From an uncultured Gammaproteobacteria bacterium (GTDB lineage Bacteria; Pseudomonadota; Gammaproteobacteria; DRLM01), in NCBI GenBank assembly GCA_947259075.1, contig CAMYKQ010000051.1:1-64000 (forward strand): DNA of 64,000 nucleotides. The letters run 5' to 3'. The notes beneath the pieces are model-generated. The model was not told where the DNA came from. It searched no databases and saw nothing but the letters and a program-made list of their open reading frames with translations. Every line of letters begins with the position of its first letter. The stretch's first letter is position 1. Both the position numbers and the translations under genes were made by a program. Positions 40,362 to 48,202 of this stretch are shown here, piece after piece.

Positions 40362-41212
40362 ACGCTGACTATCCTCCCTTGCGACCAGCGCCGCGACAGC
40401 CACGCGCTCGTGGCGTTGATTATCAGCAGCAGCAACATCAACACCAGCGCCGCGCCATAAGCGAGCCGGTCACCGCCGGGCACGTTCATCGACAAATCGA
40501 AAATGTGAATGGACAAAGCGCGCCCGGAATCCAGCAGCGAACTTGGTAAGCGGTCGACGTAACCGCTGGTGTAAATCAGCGCGGCGGTCTCGGCGAGGGC
40601 GCGGCCGACACCCAGCACCGCGCCGGCCAGCAAACCCGGCACCGCCGCCGGCAGCAACACCCGCCGCAAGGCGGCGCCGCGGCTCAAACCTAAGGCCGCG
40701 CAGGCCTGGCGGTATTCATGCGGCACGGCGCGCAAACCTGCTTCGCAGGCGCGAATCAACAGCGGTAAAACCATGCACGCCAGCGTGAGGCCGCCCGCGA
40801 GTATGGAAAAACCCAAGCCCAGCACCTGCACGAAAAATACATAACCGAACAAGCCAAACACGATGGACGGAATTCCCGCGAGAATATCCAAACTGCGGCG
40901 CACCGCGCGTGCAAAGGCAGTATCTTCCACGGTGAACTCCGCCAGCAGCAGCGCCGTGCCCAGCCCCAGAGGCAAGGCCACCGCCAAACACACCGCCAGC
41001 AGCAATAATGTGGAAACCAAAATCGGGCCGATGCCGCCGGCGCGGCCCGCGTCCTGCGGCGCCGCCGTCAAGAAATCCCAAGTTAAATAAGCCGCGCCAC
41101 GCCACACGATATCGCCGGTGAGCCAGACGAACAGCGCGGCCACCACGACAGCCGCCGACCACACCAGCGCCGCGGCGGCCGTATCGCGGCTAAGATAATT
41201 ACGCGCTGGCAT
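40358..41212 (-). CDS. pstA: Phosphate ABC transporter permease PstA
   Basis: The 284-residue inner-membrane protein has six membrane segments and the EAA-type loop QACAALGLSRGAALRRVLLPAAVPGLLAG that docks PstB. SIVFGLFGYVFF and GGLTLACMVLPLLIR are PstA/CysT-like helices. ATG 41212 (MPARNYL) overlaps pstC by 14 bases; 41227 is an alternative. It forms the channel with PstC. Confidence 0.92.
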   Translation of the reverse strand: MPARNYLSRDTAAAALVWSAAVVVAALFVWLTGDIVWRGAAYLTWDFLTAAPQDAGRAGGIGPILVSTLLLLAVCLAVALPLGLGTALLLAEFTVEDTAFARAVRRSLDILAGIPSIVFGLFGYVFFVQVLGLGFSILAGGLTLACMVLPLLIRACEAGLRAVPHEYRQACAALGLSRGAALRRVLLPAAVPGLLAGAVLGVGRALAETAALIYTSGYVDRLPSSLLDSGRALSIHIFDLSMNVPGGDRLAYGAALVLMLLLLIINATSAWLSRRWSQGRIVSV

Positions 41213-42110
41213 GGGCGGACTCTCCACTCAAACGCGCGGCCAGCAACATCAAACCCGCCACCAAACCCGCCAACACCAGGCCGCTGACGAACAGCGCGGC
41301 GCGATGCAGGTCCATCGCGTAGGCCATTTCCAAGGCGATATTCGCCGCCAAGGTCCGCAGCGGCGCGAAGACGCTGTCCGGCACGGCGACGACATTGCCG
41401 GTCACCATCAACACCGCCATGGTCTCACCCAAGGCGCGCCCCGCGGCGAGCACCACGCCGGCCAGCACACCGGCGCGCGCGGCGGGCAGGGCGATGCGCC
41501 ACACCGTACTCCAGCGGCCAAGGCCCAGCGCGGCGGCGGCGCGCAGCGTGTCGCGCGGCACGGCGCCCAAGGCGGCATCCGCCGTCAAGGCCACCGTGGG
41601 TAAAATCATCAGCGCCAACACCCACACCCCCGCGAGCAAACTCGTGCCCGGCGCCTGCCACGCCGCGATCAGCGGCACCAGCACCACCAAACCCCAAAAG
41701 CCGTAGACCACCGACGGGATGCCGGCCAGCAACTCCACCAAACGCCGGTACACCACGGCGAGCGGGCGCGGCGCGTAAAAGCGTAAAAACACGGCGCTGA
41801 GCACGCCCAGCGGCACCGCCAGCAGCAAGGCCCCCGCCGCGCAATACAGCGTGCCCGCCACCATGGGCAGTAATTGATACAGGCCTTCCGCCGGATGCCA
41901 GGCCGCGTCCGTGACAAAGCGCCACGGCCCGGCCTCACGCAAGACGGGCCAGGCGGCGCTGAGCAAAAATAAAAAAATGAAAACGAGAATCAGGCCCGCC
42001 ACCGCGGCACAGCCGCGCAGCGTCGCGCGCAGTAAGGCGTCACTGCGCGAGGGGGACAAAATACTGGGCGAGGATGAGATCACGAGTCTGCTCCGCGCGG
42101 GCGAATTCAA
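41199..42110 (-). CDS. pstC: Phosphate ABC transporter permease PstC
   Basis: The 303-residue protein has six membrane segments, with ELLAGIPSVVYGFWGLVVLVP and the loop RAAAALGLGRWSTVWRIALPAAR typical of PstC. The ATG at 42110 overlaps pstS by 71 bases. A TTG at 42059 would cut this to 20 and still leave the first helix intact, so the true start is uncertain. It pairs with PstA. Confidence 0.9.
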   Translation of the reverse strand: MNSPARSRLVISSSPSILSPSRSDALLRATLRGCAAVAGLILVFIFLFLLSAAWPVLREAGPWRFVTDAAWHPAEGLYQLLPMVAGTLYCAAGALLLAVPLGVLSAVFLRFYAPRPLAVVYRRLVELLAGIPSVVYGFWGLVVLVPLIAAWQAPGTSLLAGVWVLALMILPTVALTADAALGAVPRDTLRAAAALGLGRWSTVWRIALPAARAGVLAGVVLAAGRALGETMAVLMVTGNVVAVPDSVFAPLRTLAANIALEMAYAMDLHRAALFVSGLVLAGLVAGLMLLAARLSGESAHASA

Positions 42111-42891
42111 CGAAGTCGCGCGCCAAACCCCGCAGCGGCGCGGCGCTCACCAGATTCAGCGTGCGCGCTAAGGGATAACTGCCGTCGCGCACATGCTCGC
42201 TGCTGGCGGCGACGCCGTCGAGCGCGACCAAGCGGATAGGCGCGCCATGGGCAATGTCGTATTCCGCGGTGCCGATGGAGACATAGCCGATGGCATTGGG
42301 ATTGGCGGCGACGCTCTTAATGCCTTGCTCGTTGTCGCCTATCACCACCCGCGGCCGCGTCTCGCTGTTTTTCAATCCGGTGTAAGCGAGAAATAATTCC
42401 AGCGTGGAACGCCCCTCGGCCTTGTGCACCACGGTGATGGGCGCATCGCGCCCGCCCAGCGCTTGCCAGTTGCCGAACTCGCCGGTGTAAATCGCGATGA
42501 GCTGCGCCTTGCTCAAATTGGCGATGGGATTAGCGGCGTGGACGATGATGCCGATGCCATCACGCGCCAGCGGATAAGCGGTCAAATCGCCCTCGCCCGC
42601 TTTGAGATCACGCGAGACCATGCCGAGATGCGCCAAGCCTTGGCGCGCATCGGCGATGCCCCGCCCCGAGCCGCCGCCGTGCACGTCGATGCGCGTGCCG
42701 GGATGCGCTGACTCATAACGCTTGGCGATCTCGCCGGCGAGCGGGGCGACGGTGCTCGAGCCGGTCAGCACCAAACTGTGTTGCGCACGGGCGGCGCCCG
42801 TGCTCGCGGCCTCGGGCGCCGGCATGGAATTCAACACCGTGACCGCCGCCAGCGCGGCGATCGCGCCTATCACCCAAATCAGCCGCTGCAC
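42040..42891 (-). CDS. pstS: Phosphate ABC transporter substrate-binding protein PstS
   Basis: The 283-residue protein starts at GTG 42891 and has an uncleaved or poorly cleaved N-terminal membrane segment (LIWVIGAIAALAAVTVL), then the periplasmic binding fold. GSSTVAPLAGEIAKRY and GGGSGRGIADARQG are the phosphate-cradling loops of the PstS-like short class. It delivers phosphate to PstCA. The upstream hairpin GGCGCGG/CCGCGCC (42910-42916, 42927-42933) lies in the 79-base gap to the SUMF1 lipoprotein gene. I see no PHO box. Confidence 0.9.
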   Translation of the reverse strand: MQRLIWVIGAIAALAAVTVLNSMPAPEAASTGAARAQHSLVLTGSSTVAPLAGEIAKRYESAHPGTRIDVHGGGSGRGIADARQGLAHLGMVSRDLKAGEGDLTAYPLARDGIGIIVHAANPIANLSKAQLIAIYTGEFGNWQALGGRDAPITVVHKAEGRSTLELFLAYTGLKNSETRPRVVIGDNEQGIKSVAANPNAIGYVSIGTAEYDIAHGAPIRLVALDGVAASSEHVRDGSYPLARTLNLVSAAPLRGLARDFVEFARAEQTRDLILAQYFVPLAQ

Positions 42892-42970: not shown

Positions 42971-44035
42971 TTACACATCCGCCGCGCAGCGGAAGCCCAC
43001 GTCCTCGCCCGCCATCTCCGGTTCGGCGAATTGACGGGTGGCGCCGCGGAAGAAATAGCTCAGGGCGTAATGGCCGATGCCGCCGCCACCGCCGCGGATG
43101 ACTTTAACCTTTTCGCCGAAATTGTCGCTGCGGTAGGTCGAGTTGGGATAGGGCGCATACCAGTCGGCGACCCACTCCCACACATTGCCCGCCAAGTCGT
43201 GGGCGCCATAAAACGATTTGCTCGTGGGATAGGAACCCACGGGCGCGATACCGTCTTCCCATTCACTCTCGTCGTCATCACCGGTGTTGCTGCGCGCCGC
43301 GTTCCAATCGTTGCCCCAAGGGAACTCCAAACCGTTGGGGCCGCGCGCGGCCTTTTCCCACTCGGCCTCGCTGGGCAGACGCTTGCCGCGCCAGCGGCAA
43401 TACACATCGGCGTAGTGCCAGGAGATGCCCGTCACCGGAAAGGGGTCGCGCTTGCGCTGCTCGTGCTCCATCGCCGCCATCAAGGCTTCGCGCGGCATCC
43501 GCGTGGCGTCCATGTCCAGCTTGAAATCCTCGGCGGCGATCTGGCGCAGGCGCGCCATGTCCATGGTACTGGCCTCTTTCATGGTCAAGCCGTAACCATT
43601 GTGGCCCCATTCATAAGGCAGGGCGCGATCGGTAGTGATGATGAATTCCTTGAACTGCTTATTGCTCACCTCGTAGGCGTCGATCTTGAAGGCGGACAAT
43701 CTGACTTTGTGTTGCGGGTATTCGTCGAGATAGATCGGCGTGGCGAAGCCGTATTGCTCCTGTATGCCCTCAATGTCGGTGCGCTCGCTGCCCATGATGA
43801 ATTCCCCGGCTGGCACCGTCACCATGGCCATTTCGCTGAGGTTGCCCGGCGAGGCGGTGATGGCTTGGGGAATCTCCGCAGCATTCGCCGCGGGCACGGA
43901 CTTGGCCGCGCCACTCGCGGTCGGCGGCGTGAGCGGCGTCACCGCCTTCTCGGAAACATCATTACTATTTTGACTGCACCCCGCCGCGCCGATCGTCACG
44001 CTCACGACCAACCCCGCCCACCTCTTGAAGCTCAT
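42971..44035 (-). CDS. SUMF1/EgtB/PvdO-family lipoprotein
   Basis: From ATG 44035 (AAGGGCAGG upstream) the protein has 354 residues with a lipoprotein signal ending in GAAGC. A low-complexity linker follows, then a formylglycine-generating-enzyme-like domain (MVTVPAGEFIMGSE, DEYPQHKVRLSAFKIDAYEVSNKQF, PVTGISWHYADVYCRWRGKRLPSEAEWEKAARG, GNVWEWVADWY, GEDVGFRCA). At the position where FGE carries its copper-binding Cys pair it reads GGGGGIGHYALSYFF with no Cys, so classical FGE chemistry is unlikely; it may bind or modify a different group. An ATG at 44083 overlaps the upstream gene. It is a diverged paralogue of that gene, codirectional with it and with pstS. Confidence 0.85.
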   Translation of the reverse strand: MSFKRWAGLVVSVTIGAAGCSQNSNDVSEKAVTPLTPPTASGAAKSVPAANAAEIPQAITASPGNLSEMAMVTVPAGEFIMGSERTDIEGIQEQYGFATPIYLDEYPQHKVRLSAFKIDAYEVSNKQFKEFIITTDRALPYEWGHNGYGLTMKEASTMDMARLRQIAAEDFKLDMDATRMPREALMAAMEHEQRKRDPFPVTGISWHYADVYCRWRGKRLPSEAEWEKAARGPNGLEFPWGNDWNAARSNTGDDDESEWEDGIAPVGSYPTSKSFYGAHDLAGNVWEWVADWYAPYPNSTYRSDNFGEKVKVIRGGGGGIGHYALSYFFRGATRQFAEPEMAGEDVGFRCAADV

Positions 44036-44075
44036 GCCCTGCCCTTCTGTGCTGAGTCGATTTTTGTAACTGGAT

Positions 44076-45152
44076 TTAACCATCCTTCGCGCAGCGAAAA
44101 CCGATGGTATCGTTTTTGGTCTTGCGGGCGAAGAAGGCGCGATTATAGACCGGCGCCGACAGGCCGCACTTGTAAAATGAACAGTCGAACCACGAACCGC
44201 CTTTTAAGGTTTTATAACGTTCGCCGTAGGCCTCGGACGGCGTTTGATTGCCGGGATAGGGCTGATACCACGATGACGTCCACTCCCAGACATTGCCGGT
44301 CATGTCGAACACGCCGTAGGGGCTAGCGCCCGCCTCGAAGGCCCCGGCCGGGGTGGTGTCGCCCGCCTGCTTGAGCGCCAGCCAGCGCACCGGGGTATTG
44401 GCCTTGCGCACGTCGAAGGTATTTCCCCACGGGAAGGAACGGCCGTCGGTATCGCGGGCCGCCTTTTCCCACTCGACGTCACTGGGCAGGCGTTTGCCCG
44501 CCCACGCGCAATAGGCCTCGGCGTCGTACCAAGTGACGAAGGTCACCGGATGATCGGCCTTGCCGGCGGGGAAGGTGCGGTTGCGGAAATGATCGGGCGA
44601 ACGGCGGCCGCTGGCGTCGATGAAGGCCTTGTATTGCAGATTGGTGACTTCGTACAAATCAATTTTGAAGGCGGGGACATCCACCGTGTGCTGCGGGCCT
44701 TCATCGGGCAGGCGCTCGTCGGTGCCGCGAATGAAACGGCCAGCGGGAATCGCCGCCATGGGATTGGCCTCGCCGCCCAGCCGCGATTGCGCCGTGTATT
44801 GGGCAAAGCGCATGCCGTCACTGGCGCTGATGGGTTTATCGGGCAAGAGTTTAGATAACTCCGACTCGCGCTCGCTCGCCGCGCTCACCCTCACCACACC
44901 CTCGCGCACGGCCGGCGGCTGATGACAACGCTGACAAGGTTTATCCGGCGCCTCGATCACGGCCGCCACGTTCATGTCTTTGGGATGGCAACGGCTGCAG
45001 GCGTTTTGCTGGTGAATATGATCCCGCGGTGCGGCGCCGGAGGCCGCGGCCAGCGCGGCGGCGGGCGCCGCCAGCAGCAAAATCACCGTCCAGCACACTG
45101 TGGCGCGCACACCCCGCGCCGTCCTGGTTTTTTCACGAAACACTCTGGTCAT
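44076..45152 (-). CDS. Dihaem cytochrome c / SUMF1-domain fusion protein
   Basis: The 358-residue secreted protein has a signal peptide (WTVILLLAAPAAALA), then two haem-c motifs CSRCH (52-56) and CQRCH (73-77), and a SUMF1/FGE-like domain (about 130-358: MAAIPAGRFIRGTDE, DLYEVTNLQYKAF, WYDAEAYCAWAGKRLPSDVEWEKAARD, GNVWEWTSSWYQPY). Near the end it has Cys324-x4-Cys329 in GGSWFDCSFYKC, the same five-residue step as the copper-binding Cys pair of true FGE, offset by one residue. A haem-bearing SUMF1 protein could couple electron transfer to oxygen-dependent or copper chemistry in the periplasm (inference). Its neighbour downstream is a paralogue lacking both features. AGGATAG lies about 12 bases before the ATG. 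Confidence 0.87.
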   Translation of the reverse strand: MTRVFREKTRTARGVRATVCWTVILLLAAPAAALAAASGAAPRDHIHQQNACSRCHPKDMNVAAVIEAPDKPCQRCHQPPAVREGVVRVSAASERESELSKLLPDKPISASDGMRFAQYTAQSRLGGEANPMAAIPAGRFIRGTDERLPDEGPQHTVDVPAFKIDLYEVTNLQYKAFIDASGRRSPDHFRNRTFPAGKADHPVTFVTWYDAEAYCAWAGKRLPSDVEWEKAARDTDGRSFPWGNTFDVRKANTPVRWLALKQAGDTTPAGAFEAGASPYGVFDMTGNVWEWTSSWYQPYPGNQTPSEAYGERYKTLKGGSWFDCSFYKCGLSAPVYNRAFFARKTKNDTIGFRCAKDG

Positions 45153-46422: not shown

Positions 46423-46469
46423 ACCTGTCAGATTTGACAGTTATGCCCGCTCGTCCCGTCCTGTCTACT
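46423..46469 (+). promoter_or_regulatory. lux box and -10 for the luxI operon
   Basis: Bases 46423-46442 form a 20-base lux-type box with perfect inverted arms CTGTCA (46425-46430) and TGACAG (46435-46440) and the CT-N12-AG core. TCTACT at 46464-46469 sits where a -10 would be if the box is centred near -42.5. Transcription would start near 46476, about 32 bases before luxI. This is the standard layout of LuxR-activated class II promoters. Confidence 0.85.
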
Positions 46470-46507: not shown

Positions 46508-47137
46508 ATGGACAACCGCATCCTTGTGGTACAGCCCGGCGATCCCACTCTGCACAAAGATGTTCTGGACAGTCTTTACCGTTTTCGCACCGAGATGTTC
46601 TACAAGCGCCTCAAGTGGGACTTGAGCATCGACAACGGCTTGGAGAAAGACCAGTACGACGAACTCAATCCCGTTTACCTGCTCTCGCGCAATCACCTCG
46701 ATGAAGTCCAAAGCTGCGCCCGCCTGCTGCCGACCACCGGTCCCTATATGCTGCGCGAAGTGTTTCCGCAAATGCTACAAGGCGAGGCGGCACCCGAAGA
46801 TGACGGCGTGTGGGAGCTGAGCCGTTTCGCGGTCATCCCGCCCGGCGGCACGGACAAACAGCAGGCCACGTTTCACCCGCTCACCCTCGGCATGATGCAG
46901 CAAGCGGTGCACTTCGCCGACCGCAACGGCATCGAGCGCTACGTCGTCGTCACCAGCGTGGCGCTGGAAAAATTACTGCGGCGCATCGGTCTCGGCATGC
47001 GCCGCTTCGGCCAGGGCAAGGCTATGTGGATAGGCAATGTACTGTCGGTCGCCTGCTGGATCGACATCAACGAGCAAACGCGGCGCGCCGTGGGTTGCGA
47101 GGAGTCCGCGGCGATCACCCGCAAGGAGGCGGCATGA
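46508..47137 (+). CDS. Acyl-homoserine-lactone synthase (LuxI family)
   Basis: The 209-residue enzyme makes an N-acyl-homoserine lactone from S-adenosylmethionine and an acyl carrier. All family-invariant residues are visible at the right distances: Arg27, Phe31, Trp37, Asp48, Asp51, Arg72, Glu103 and Arg106 (segments RTEMFYKRLKW, GLEKDQYD, ARLLPTTGPYML, WELSRFA). Acyl-chain length cannot be predicted. GGGGGAAACAGAG precedes the ATG. The stop overlaps the start of the receiver-like gene as ATGA, so both are made together under lux-box control, giving positive feedback. Confidence 0.95.
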   Translation: MDNRILVVQPGDPTLHKDVLDSLYRFRTEMFYKRLKWDLSIDNGLEKDQYDELNPVYLLSRNHLDEVQSCARLLPTTGPYMLREVFPQMLQGEAAPEDDGVWELSRFAVIPPGGTDKQQATFHPLTLGMMQQAVHFADRNGIERYVVVTSVALEKLLRRIGLGMRRFGQGKAMWIGNVLSVACWIDINEQTRRAVGCEESAAITRKEAA

Positions 47138-47535
47138 AAATACTCATCATCGGCAAGGATGCCAACACGGAACGTTTTTTCAGCGATCTAGGGCATGGGC
47201 ACGCCATCACCCATTGCGCGGATGGCGCCAGAGCACTCGCTGAACTAAGGAATGGTTCACCGCATTACGACTGGATCGTCGTACAAGGCATGGCGAAGGC
47301 GCTGAACAGCATGGACATCGCGAGCGCCATCCGCGCAATGGGCGTATGGGCGCCCATTGCCTTCATTTGGGACGCCGATCACCTCGGCGCCCAAACCCCG
47401 CGCGCGCCCGGCGGGTTGCGCGCACTGCTGGCGCAACTGAGCGCGCGGGACAGTCTCCGGCAGGACGCCGGCGAGGAACCGGAACTGGTATTCGAATACC
47501 ACGCCCCGCTCAAACGGCGAGGACAAGCCTGCTGA
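47134..47535 (+). CDS. Receiver-like protein lacking the phospho-acceptor, coupled to luxI
   Basis: The 133-residue protein folds like a CheY-type receiver for its first ~95 residues: beta1 ILIIGKD, helix 1, beta2 AITHCAD, GARALAEL, beta3 YDWIVV, SMDIASAIRAMG and beta4 APIAFIWD. At the position of the phosphorylated Asp it has Gln51 (IVVQGM instead of IxLDxM), and the acidic pair before it is reduced (Gly7-Lys8-Asp9). So it cannot be phosphorylated in the usual way and may act by binding only, for instance to the synthase, LuxR or a partner. The last 40 residues are a charged tail with no HTH. AAGGAGG lies 4 bases before the ATG, which overlaps the luxI stop as ATGA. I do not know a named family for this. 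Confidence 0.8.
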   Translation: MKILIIGKDANTERFFSDLGHGHAITHCADGARALAELRNGSPHYDWIVVQGMAKALNSMDIASAIRAMGVWAPIAFIWDADHLGAQTPRAPGGLRALLAQLSARDSLRQDAGEEPELVFEYHAPLKRRGQAC

Positions 47536-47719: not shown

Positions 47720-48202
47720 TCAACGCGGCGGGAACTGATTGAGAATTTGCCGCACCACCTTCACGAGGTGTTCATTCAGGAAAAAGCCCGGCTCATCAAG
47801 CTTGGCGGGCAGCGCCTTTTCCAAGCGGCCGCGCCACACCACCTGCCGCGTCTGGCCGTCGCTGATCATCACCTCGACGGAGCGATCGGCGTTCACCCCG
47901 GAGGGCTGAGGACCCGCCACCCCATGGCGGTAACTCACGAAAAAGTCCGGGGCGCCCAAGGTTTGATATTTATAGGCGCGGGCGGTGAGTTCGCGGTGCA
48001 GGCCACTGCGGATAGCCGCATCAAGGCGGAAGGCCTCAATATCATCAACGGATACCGCCTCCTCCCCGGCATTGAGCCAATCAAAGGTTTTATAGGTGCG
48101 CAAAGGCACGTCACTCGCGAACTCGGTCTTGACCGGACCGGCCGTGCAAGCCGCCAGTGCCAGCAGGCAAGCGCACAGACTTATGATGCCCCAGCGAGCC
48201 AC
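47720..48202 (-). CDS. DUF4136-family lipoprotein
   Basis: The 160-residue protein has a lipoprotein signal ending in LAAC (Cys19) and the DUF4136 pattern: a YKTFDWL strand near the N-terminus, an acidic helix with RLDAAIRSGLHREL, then PDFFVSYRHGV and VWRGRLEKALP. Members sit in the periplasm at the outer membrane and have no assigned activity. It converges on the quorum-sensing unit with a 184-base gap that shows no clear hairpin. Confidence 0.8.
   Translation of the reverse strand: MARWGIISLCACLLALAACTAGPVKTEFASDVPLRTYKTFDWLNAGEEAVSVDDIEAFRLDAAIRSGLHRELTARAYKYQTLGAPDFFVSYRHGVAGPQPSGVNADRSVEVMISDGQTRQVVWRGRLEKALPAKLDEPGFFLNEHLVKVVRQILNQFPPR

Follow-up and report, generated by a model that had tools for sequence, protein, structure and literature searches.

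The DNA analysed here (the window) is a stretch of 64,000 nucleotides from the genome of an uncultured gammaproteobacterium (contig CAMYKQ010000051.1). It carries a quorum-sensing unit of three genes on the same (+) strand: a luxR-type regulator, the AHL synthase gene luxI, and a small open reading frame, ORF3, the features of which are collected in Table 1. The LuxR and LuxI of the window far exceed the Pfam cut-offs and are thus genuine, and LuxI keeps every column that is invariant among its relatives. The first-pass annotation had described ORF3 as translationally coupled to luxI, and its ATGA overlap with the luxI stop codon, together with a Shine-Dalgarno sequence lying within the last luxI codons, bears this out. 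Like the gene for CinS, ORF3 is a small gene 3' of an AHL synthase gene; from its ATGA overlap and the single lux-box-like dyad 5' of luxI we infer co-transcription. The dyad, CCTGTCAGATTTGACAGT, is likely a LuxR site that would drive luxI and ORF3 jointly, a reading based on established knowledge of LuxR systems; an identical dyad is present in a congener. No histidine kinase gene lies beside ORF3 in the window, and the gene downstream of ORF3 is an opposite-strand ORF (47720-48202). Further genes of the window were recognized by eye on the minus strand: adjacent, overlapping ORFs resembling formylglycine-generating-enzyme-type proteins (42971-44083 and 44076-45152), the latter with CxxCH haem-type motifs near its N-terminus, as well as a phosphate ABC transporter-like permease and a PstS-like binding protein (41199-42110 and 42040-42891).

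Table 1. Features of the luxR-luxI-ORF3 locus, in coordinates of the window.
Feature	Position	Strand	Basis
luxR-type regulator, 251 aa	45643..46398	+	Pfam Autoind_bind 9e-31, GerE 1.1e-18; autoinducer-binding domain and GerE DNA-binding domain
Lux-box-like dyad CCTGTCAGATTTGACAGT	46424..46441	.	5' of luxI; putative LuxR-binding site controlling luxI-ORF3
luxI, AHL synthase, 209 aa	46508..47137	+	Pfam Autoind_synth 2e-36
AAGGAGG, Shine-Dalgarno sequence of ORF3, within last luxI codons	47123..47129	+	Sequence reading
ATGA, ORF3 start overlapping luxI stop	47134..47137	+	Sequence reading; likewise in 46/49 partner loci
ORF3, luxI-coupled pseudo-receiver, 133 aa	47134..47535	+	Fold, family alignment, pocket residues
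ORF3 truncated receiver core, residues 1-82, beta-alpha x3 plus beta4	47134..47379	+	AlphaFold2 model; dN/dS 0.28 vs congener
Gln51 codon at phospho-acceptor Asp position	47284..47286	+	Alignment with receivers
ORF3 variable linker, residues 83-112; region of the Cys pair of relatives, which ORF3 lacks	47380..47469	+	dN/dS 0.95; family alignment
ORF3 conserved C-terminal tail with VFEYHAPLKRRGQA, residues 113-133	47470..47532	+	dN/dS 0.16; EY tail in family

The congener (genome G001) has luxR, luxI and ORF3 in identical order with the ATGA overlap retained, at 69% identity for ORF3, 74% for luxI and 78% for luxR. The dyad is unchanged there, while the rest of the intergenic stretch diverges. 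In this two-species comparison the Nei-Gojobori dN/dS was 0.39 for ORF3 and 0.135 for luxI and luxR. The value for ORF3 is unevenly distributed, being 0.28 in the core, 0.95 in the linker and 0.16 in the tail, which is almost identical in the two congeners. Based on these regional values, the core and tail are under purifying selection and the linker nearly free. The congener, the dN/dS values and the family described below rule out a spurious ORF.

The AlphaFold2 model of ORF3 (pLDDT 78, pTM 0.68) predicts three beta-alpha units followed by beta4. Its structural matches by Foldseek and VIA-align were receivers almost throughout, with a VIA-align Z of 11.2 for CheY4 (95 residues, 2.5 A). On its own, the ORF3 sequence fell below threshold for every Pfam family and for the NCBIfam response regulators (E 0.16), and reached E values of 0.12-1 against PDB receivers and 1e-3 against plasmid response regulators. 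A profile of the family matched a solved receiver in the PDB at E 1.2e-5, and essentially all of the matches listed were receivers. For the member from Nitrotoga the model was weaker (pLDDT 73); receivers still ranked first (Z 8.9), and the CikA pseudo-receiver was among the matches (Z 8.3, 78 residues). A flavodoxin-like identity was considered and dropped: one member gave a Pfam E of 0.006, which is below the cut-off, and with the Nitrotoga model flavodoxins ranked no higher than receivers. Taken together, model and profile provide solid support for the view that ORF3 is receiver-derived, and the CheY-like fold assigned in the first-pass annotation survives the check that had been named as able to overturn it, namely a prediction of some other fold. 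Since beta5-alpha5 has no clear counterpart in the model, ORF3 is best described as a predicted truncated receiver, followed by a variable linker and then a conserved tail.

Pocket residues were read from an alignment of the family with seven real receivers. ORF3 has Gly7-Lys8 at the acidic pair, Gln51 at the position of CheY Asp57, Trp79 at that of Thr87, and no equivalent of Lys109, so that Gln51 does replace the phosphorylated Asp, as originally proposed. None of the features of a phosphorylatable response regulator (Asp, acidic pair, Thr/Ser, Lys and a kinase nearby) is found for ORF3. Among 36 members, the D12 column holds Gly in 33 and Asp in none, T87 is mostly lost and K109 is absent from all, and the pocket is broken in every one. 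The idea that Asp is always lost failed: the Asp57 column reads D20 E9 N4 Q2 A1 (Asp or Glu in 29 of 36), and it is the remainder of the pocket that is always lost. Homologues combining an intact Asp with a cognate kinase had been named as evidence against an unphosphorylatable receiver; the Asp is present in 20 of 36 members, and a histidine kinase gene 3' of the partner was found only at L053 among the partner loci scanned by Pfam and not at the window. Judged from the alignment, loss of phosphorylation in the normal way is the rule across the family, and loss of the Asp is a trait of the window genus and no family rule.

A luxI profile run over 369 Gammaproteobacteria genomes was positive in 11, and in 9 of these an ORF of 75-160 aa with a tail of the EY(H/N/Q/R) type, or a fusion of such an ORF, lies beside luxI. 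Nine LuxI proteins proved too divergent, when aligned, to yield a pattern; four were therefore used for a pattern scan of genome contigs, which provided the 80 nearest named luxI loci. A family member lies directly 3' of luxI in 49 of the 80; 2 are ambiguous (a remnant at L087, and L090) and 29 have none. Conserved pairs of luxI with a receiver-like gene, a prediction of the first-pass annotation, therefore exist, and the partner begins with the 4-nt ATGA overlap in 46 of the 49. The hosts belong to the Gamma- and Betaproteobacteria and the Desulfuromonadales, and include Thiohalobacter, Arhodomonas aquaeolei, an Ectothiorhodospiraceae bacterium, Nitrosospira, Nitrosovibrio, Candidatus Nitrotoga, Gallionellaceae and Hydrogenophilus. 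Members share the truncated receiver core and a C-terminal FEY(H/Q)AP tail; L4 and G7 are near-invariant, EY falls within the last 30 residues in 37 of 40, and most have a Cys pair, CG(V/I)E...(R/H)C, the Cys column of which is nearly invariant. ORF3 displays the position directly 3' of luxI, the ATGA overlap, an MKIL..G N-terminus, the receiver core and the EY tail.

On a LuxI tree the presence or absence of a partner requires 6 changes, compared with 25.5 for shuffled labels, and none of 500 shuffles was as low; near-copies inflate this result, and the tree is a quick one with long branches. The partner trait is nevertheless clearly inherited along with luxI. Among the matches listed for the 369 Gammaproteobacteria, every one that extends as far as the tail lies next to luxI, except for one in a decayed luxI fusion (genome G085), and the other family-profile matches end in the receiver part at about position 84-105, like ordinary response regulators. 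For ten representatives of the family, neither Pfam nor NCBIfam gave a match above cut-off. The family surfaced only by walking out from luxI, as single-sequence searches (Pfam, NCBIfam, PDB, plasmids, genome contigs) gave no firm match, at most weak ones to receivers. Viral contigs searched with luxI and ORF3 patterns held no relative, and an open-access literature search returned no description of a luxI-coupled pseudo-receiver family; the family is apparently undescribed.

Several loci depart from the common arrangement. At L029:2310-3317 (genome G244), a second LuxI-like ORF 3' of luxI carries a C-terminal fusion to a family member (MNLLVIS...FDWVFID...ILEYRATCRRD). At L117:1375-1824 (genome G085), an in-frame deletion has joined an initial portion of luxI with the pseudo-receiver's C-terminal half; a short luxR ORF (889-1236) lies upstream and an intact EAL-type gene downstream. 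A 75-aa luxI-linked relative at L027:1144-1371 (minus strand) has no receiver core, two CxxC pairs and an LEYHMPC tail, which suggests that the tail region is able to stand alone. In three loci of gammaproteobacterial MAGs (L042, L047 and L048), luxI falls within the partner-bearing part of the tree and is flanked by two luxR genes with no partner, as if a second luxR had taken the place of the partner.

The gene 3' of the partner is frequently one encoding an EAL domain, of the c-di-GMP phosphodiesterase type. By Pfam scan, EAL was found in 17 of 20 such loci, including one that has a remnant of the partner, and the other 3 had genes for a histidine kinase, for a NarL-type regulator and for a REC protein. 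The EAL genes mostly also encode GGDEF and PAS or REC domains. Their EAL signature and their DDFG motif are for the most part preserved, and at several loci there is an overlap or near-overlap between the EAL gene and the stop codon of the partner. By tblastn, 27 of the 49 partner loci have a same-strand EAL gene no more than 3 kb from luxI, compared with none of the 29 partner-less luxI loci, counts in which related loci are non-independent and the effective n is lower, with the loci spanning several classes. A luxR relative lies upstream in 30 of the 49. Outside the Nitrosospira group, EAL is present in 27 of 32 partner loci (in three of them two genes down), and all 17 partner loci that lack both EAL and luxR nearby are from Nitrosospira or Nitrosovibrio (L060-L062, L065-L069, L071, L072, L074, L076, L078, L081, L083, L086 and L088). 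The window genome contains just 24 EAL matches altogether, which makes chance adjacency of partner and EAL gene unlikely. In Nitrospira, luxI and a divergent GGDEF/EAL gene have one lux box in common (PMC8553950), an analogy that provides an independent hint of luxI and EAL genes travelling together.

The first-pass annotation had suggested a new antagonist or adaptor of AHL signalling. The downstream EAL genes point away from a pure AHL antagonist and towards an adaptor between quorum sensing and c-di-GMP. We tentatively propose, with somewhat less than even confidence, that the pseudo-receiver is a phosphorylation-independent adaptor which is produced alongside LuxI and links AHL output with c-di-GMP signalling through an inferred binding partner. 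LuxR-AHL would turn on the operon, and LuxI and the pseudo-receiver would rise together in a fixed ratio. The pseudo-receiver would then act through stoichiometric binding, not phosphorylation, with its receiver face and FEYHAP-K/R tail either controlling a c-di-GMP enzyme or reading c-di-GMP itself, and the outcome would be a coupling of the quorum state to the c-di-GMP state. A c-di-GMP enzyme is the favoured target because of the EAL linkage. The contact is a predicted one: operon neighbours can share regulation without contact, and such genomes hold many EAL/GGDEF genes. An EAL neighbour is not obligatory either, since the window genus and about 17 Nitrosospira-group loci pair luxI with the partner and have no EAL gene nearby.

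The window genus is an unusual member in this regard. It has no Cys pair, has Gln in place of Asp and has no adjoining EAL gene, and it retains the core, the coupling and the tail with VFEYHAPLKRRGQA. Because these parts are kept where EAL gene, Cys pair and Asp are not, the function has probably either been kept with its target elsewhere or been narrowed to quorum-sensing proteins. Given that no EAL gene is adjacent, the target would be another EAL protein, perhaps one of the 24 matches mentioned above, or the quorum-sensing proteins themselves.

The adaptor is favoured over a local brake on AHL production, its main rival. On this rival view the pseudo-receiver, acting either as an anti-activator or as an accessory subunit, would bind LuxR or LuxI and damp or sharpen AHL production. 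Such a modulator is unlikely on balance, but it has more than one observation on its side: the pairing with luxI persists without neighbouring luxR or EAL in the 17 Nitrosospira-group loci, the partner is fused to a LuxI-like protein in one locus, and the window genus has retained luxR, lux box, luxI and partner but no EAL. It leaves unexplained, however, why EAL genes accompany 27 of the 32 partner loci beyond the Nitrosospira group and 0 of 29 controls, and no kinship with RsaM-type regulators was found in either sequence or fold. If the partner instead titrated, independently of AHL, a transcription factor encoded at some other locus of the genome, it would be an antirepressor; the precedent is CinS, a small protein made from the cinI transcript that needs no AHL to bind the repressor PraR (PMC5977203). 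The partner loci have no linked candidate repressor, and we regard this as quite improbable.

A c-di-GMP- or EAL-protein-binding switch, through which c-di-GMP would gate quorum output, is distinctly unlikely; it draws on the Y-x-(A/G)-P-x-(K/R) tail, which is like half of the Arg-rich motif of Cle proteins. Of the 22 gamma-type tails, 10, that of the window among them, carry a relaxed motif, [YF]X[AG]PX[RK][RK], compared with 0.008 expected from shuffled tails, a contrast to be read in light of the motif having been picked afterwards and of the tails being mutually related. We therefore treat the likeness as a weak lead. The nearly invariant Cys column, and the 75-aa relative that retains two CxxC pairs and the tail with no receiver core, are consistent with a redox- or metal-sensing adaptor in which the Cys pair would gate the tail through metal binding or a disulfide. 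Since the window genus has lost the whole pair but retained the tail, sensing of this kind cannot be the core function there, and it is the reading to which we assign the least credence. Finally, ORF3 in the window genus may be a relic, drifting after the loss of EAL gene, Cys pair and Asp and kept mainly through its coupling to luxI. Its dN/dS exceeds that of luxI and luxR about threefold, the linker is at 0.95, and the locus has truly decayed in a related closed genome; the low values for core and tail, and the near identity of the tail in two species, argue against this, making a relic very improbable.

If the pseudo-receiver is indeed a c-di-GMP- or EAL-protein-binding switch, luxR-luxI-pseudoreceiver-EAL would be a self-contained module joining two signalling systems in several bacterial groups. 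Known wiring from AHL to c-di-GMP follows mostly indirect transcriptional routes, and a pseudo-receiver that is translated with LuxI and usually encoded between luxI and an EAL enzyme is a concrete candidate for a direct link. The hosts, among them ammonia and nitrite oxidisers and sulfur bacteria, are environmentally important, the family is without a Pfam or NCBIfam model, and culturable hosts such as Nitrosospira multiformis and Arhodomonas aquaeolei make the question testable.

Other LuxI partners differ from the ORF3 family. The first-pass annotation cited unrelated enzymes and RsaL/RsaM-type repressors as the usual partners; that list omits the CinS antirepressor (PMC5977203). CinS of Rhizobium leguminosarum (PMC5977203; PMC4149787) is, like ORF3, a small protein made with an AHL synthase from a downstream gene. 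Compared by description, it is about half the size of ORF3 at 67 aa (PMC3356288), and its target PraR is not implicated for ORF3. BCAM1871 of Burkholderia cenocepacia lies directly 3' of cepI, is co-transcribed with it and affects AHL activity (PMC3356288), but it has 254 aa, a 52 bp spacer and a reported partial HMG-CoA-reductase-like domain, and is confined to Burkholderia (PMC3356288); identity with it was dropped on size and domain. RsaM/AbaM proteins are luxI-linked in beta- and gammaproteobacteria and are not DNA-binding (PMC10710839). RsaM has a five-stranded antiparallel sheet around two helices and a Trp quartet, and is usually its own unit upstream of luxI (PMC10710839), whereas ORF3 has a predicted parallel beta-alpha receiver core and overlaps luxI from downstream; this identity was dropped on predicted fold. 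Neither RsaM nor CinS appeared in the structure or sequence match lists of the family, which is no proof of absence. As far as tested, none of CinS, BCAM1871, RsaM/AbaM and the Nitrospira luxI arrangement is the ORF3 family.

Other likenesses are to proteins of receiver fold. The Cle proteins of Caulobacter are CheY-like, freed from phosphorylation, and carry a c-di-GMP-binding C-terminal Arg-rich motif, [Y/F]XGP[D/E][R/K]R (PMC5677366), and c-di-GMP-binding pseudo-receivers are a recent theme according to a review (PMC10333796). ORF3 likewise combines a receiver without phosphorylation with a C-terminal extension, and its YHAPLKR resembles half of the ARR motif; however, the exact core [YF]XGPX[RK]R occurs in 0 of 40 family members, no tandem copy is present, and membership in Cle was dropped for that reason. 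The CikA pseudo-receiver resembles the family in its receiver fold and lack of phospho-transfer, but it belongs to a hybrid kinase of the cyanobacterial clock and is no partner of LuxI. Compared with REC domains of the CheY/OmpR type, the family has lost the acidic pair, the Lys and mostly the Thr, its phospho-Asp is variable and beta5-alpha5 has no clear counterpart; what it has in common with them is a like fold and sequence ancestry, and what it has in addition is the conserved C-terminal tail.
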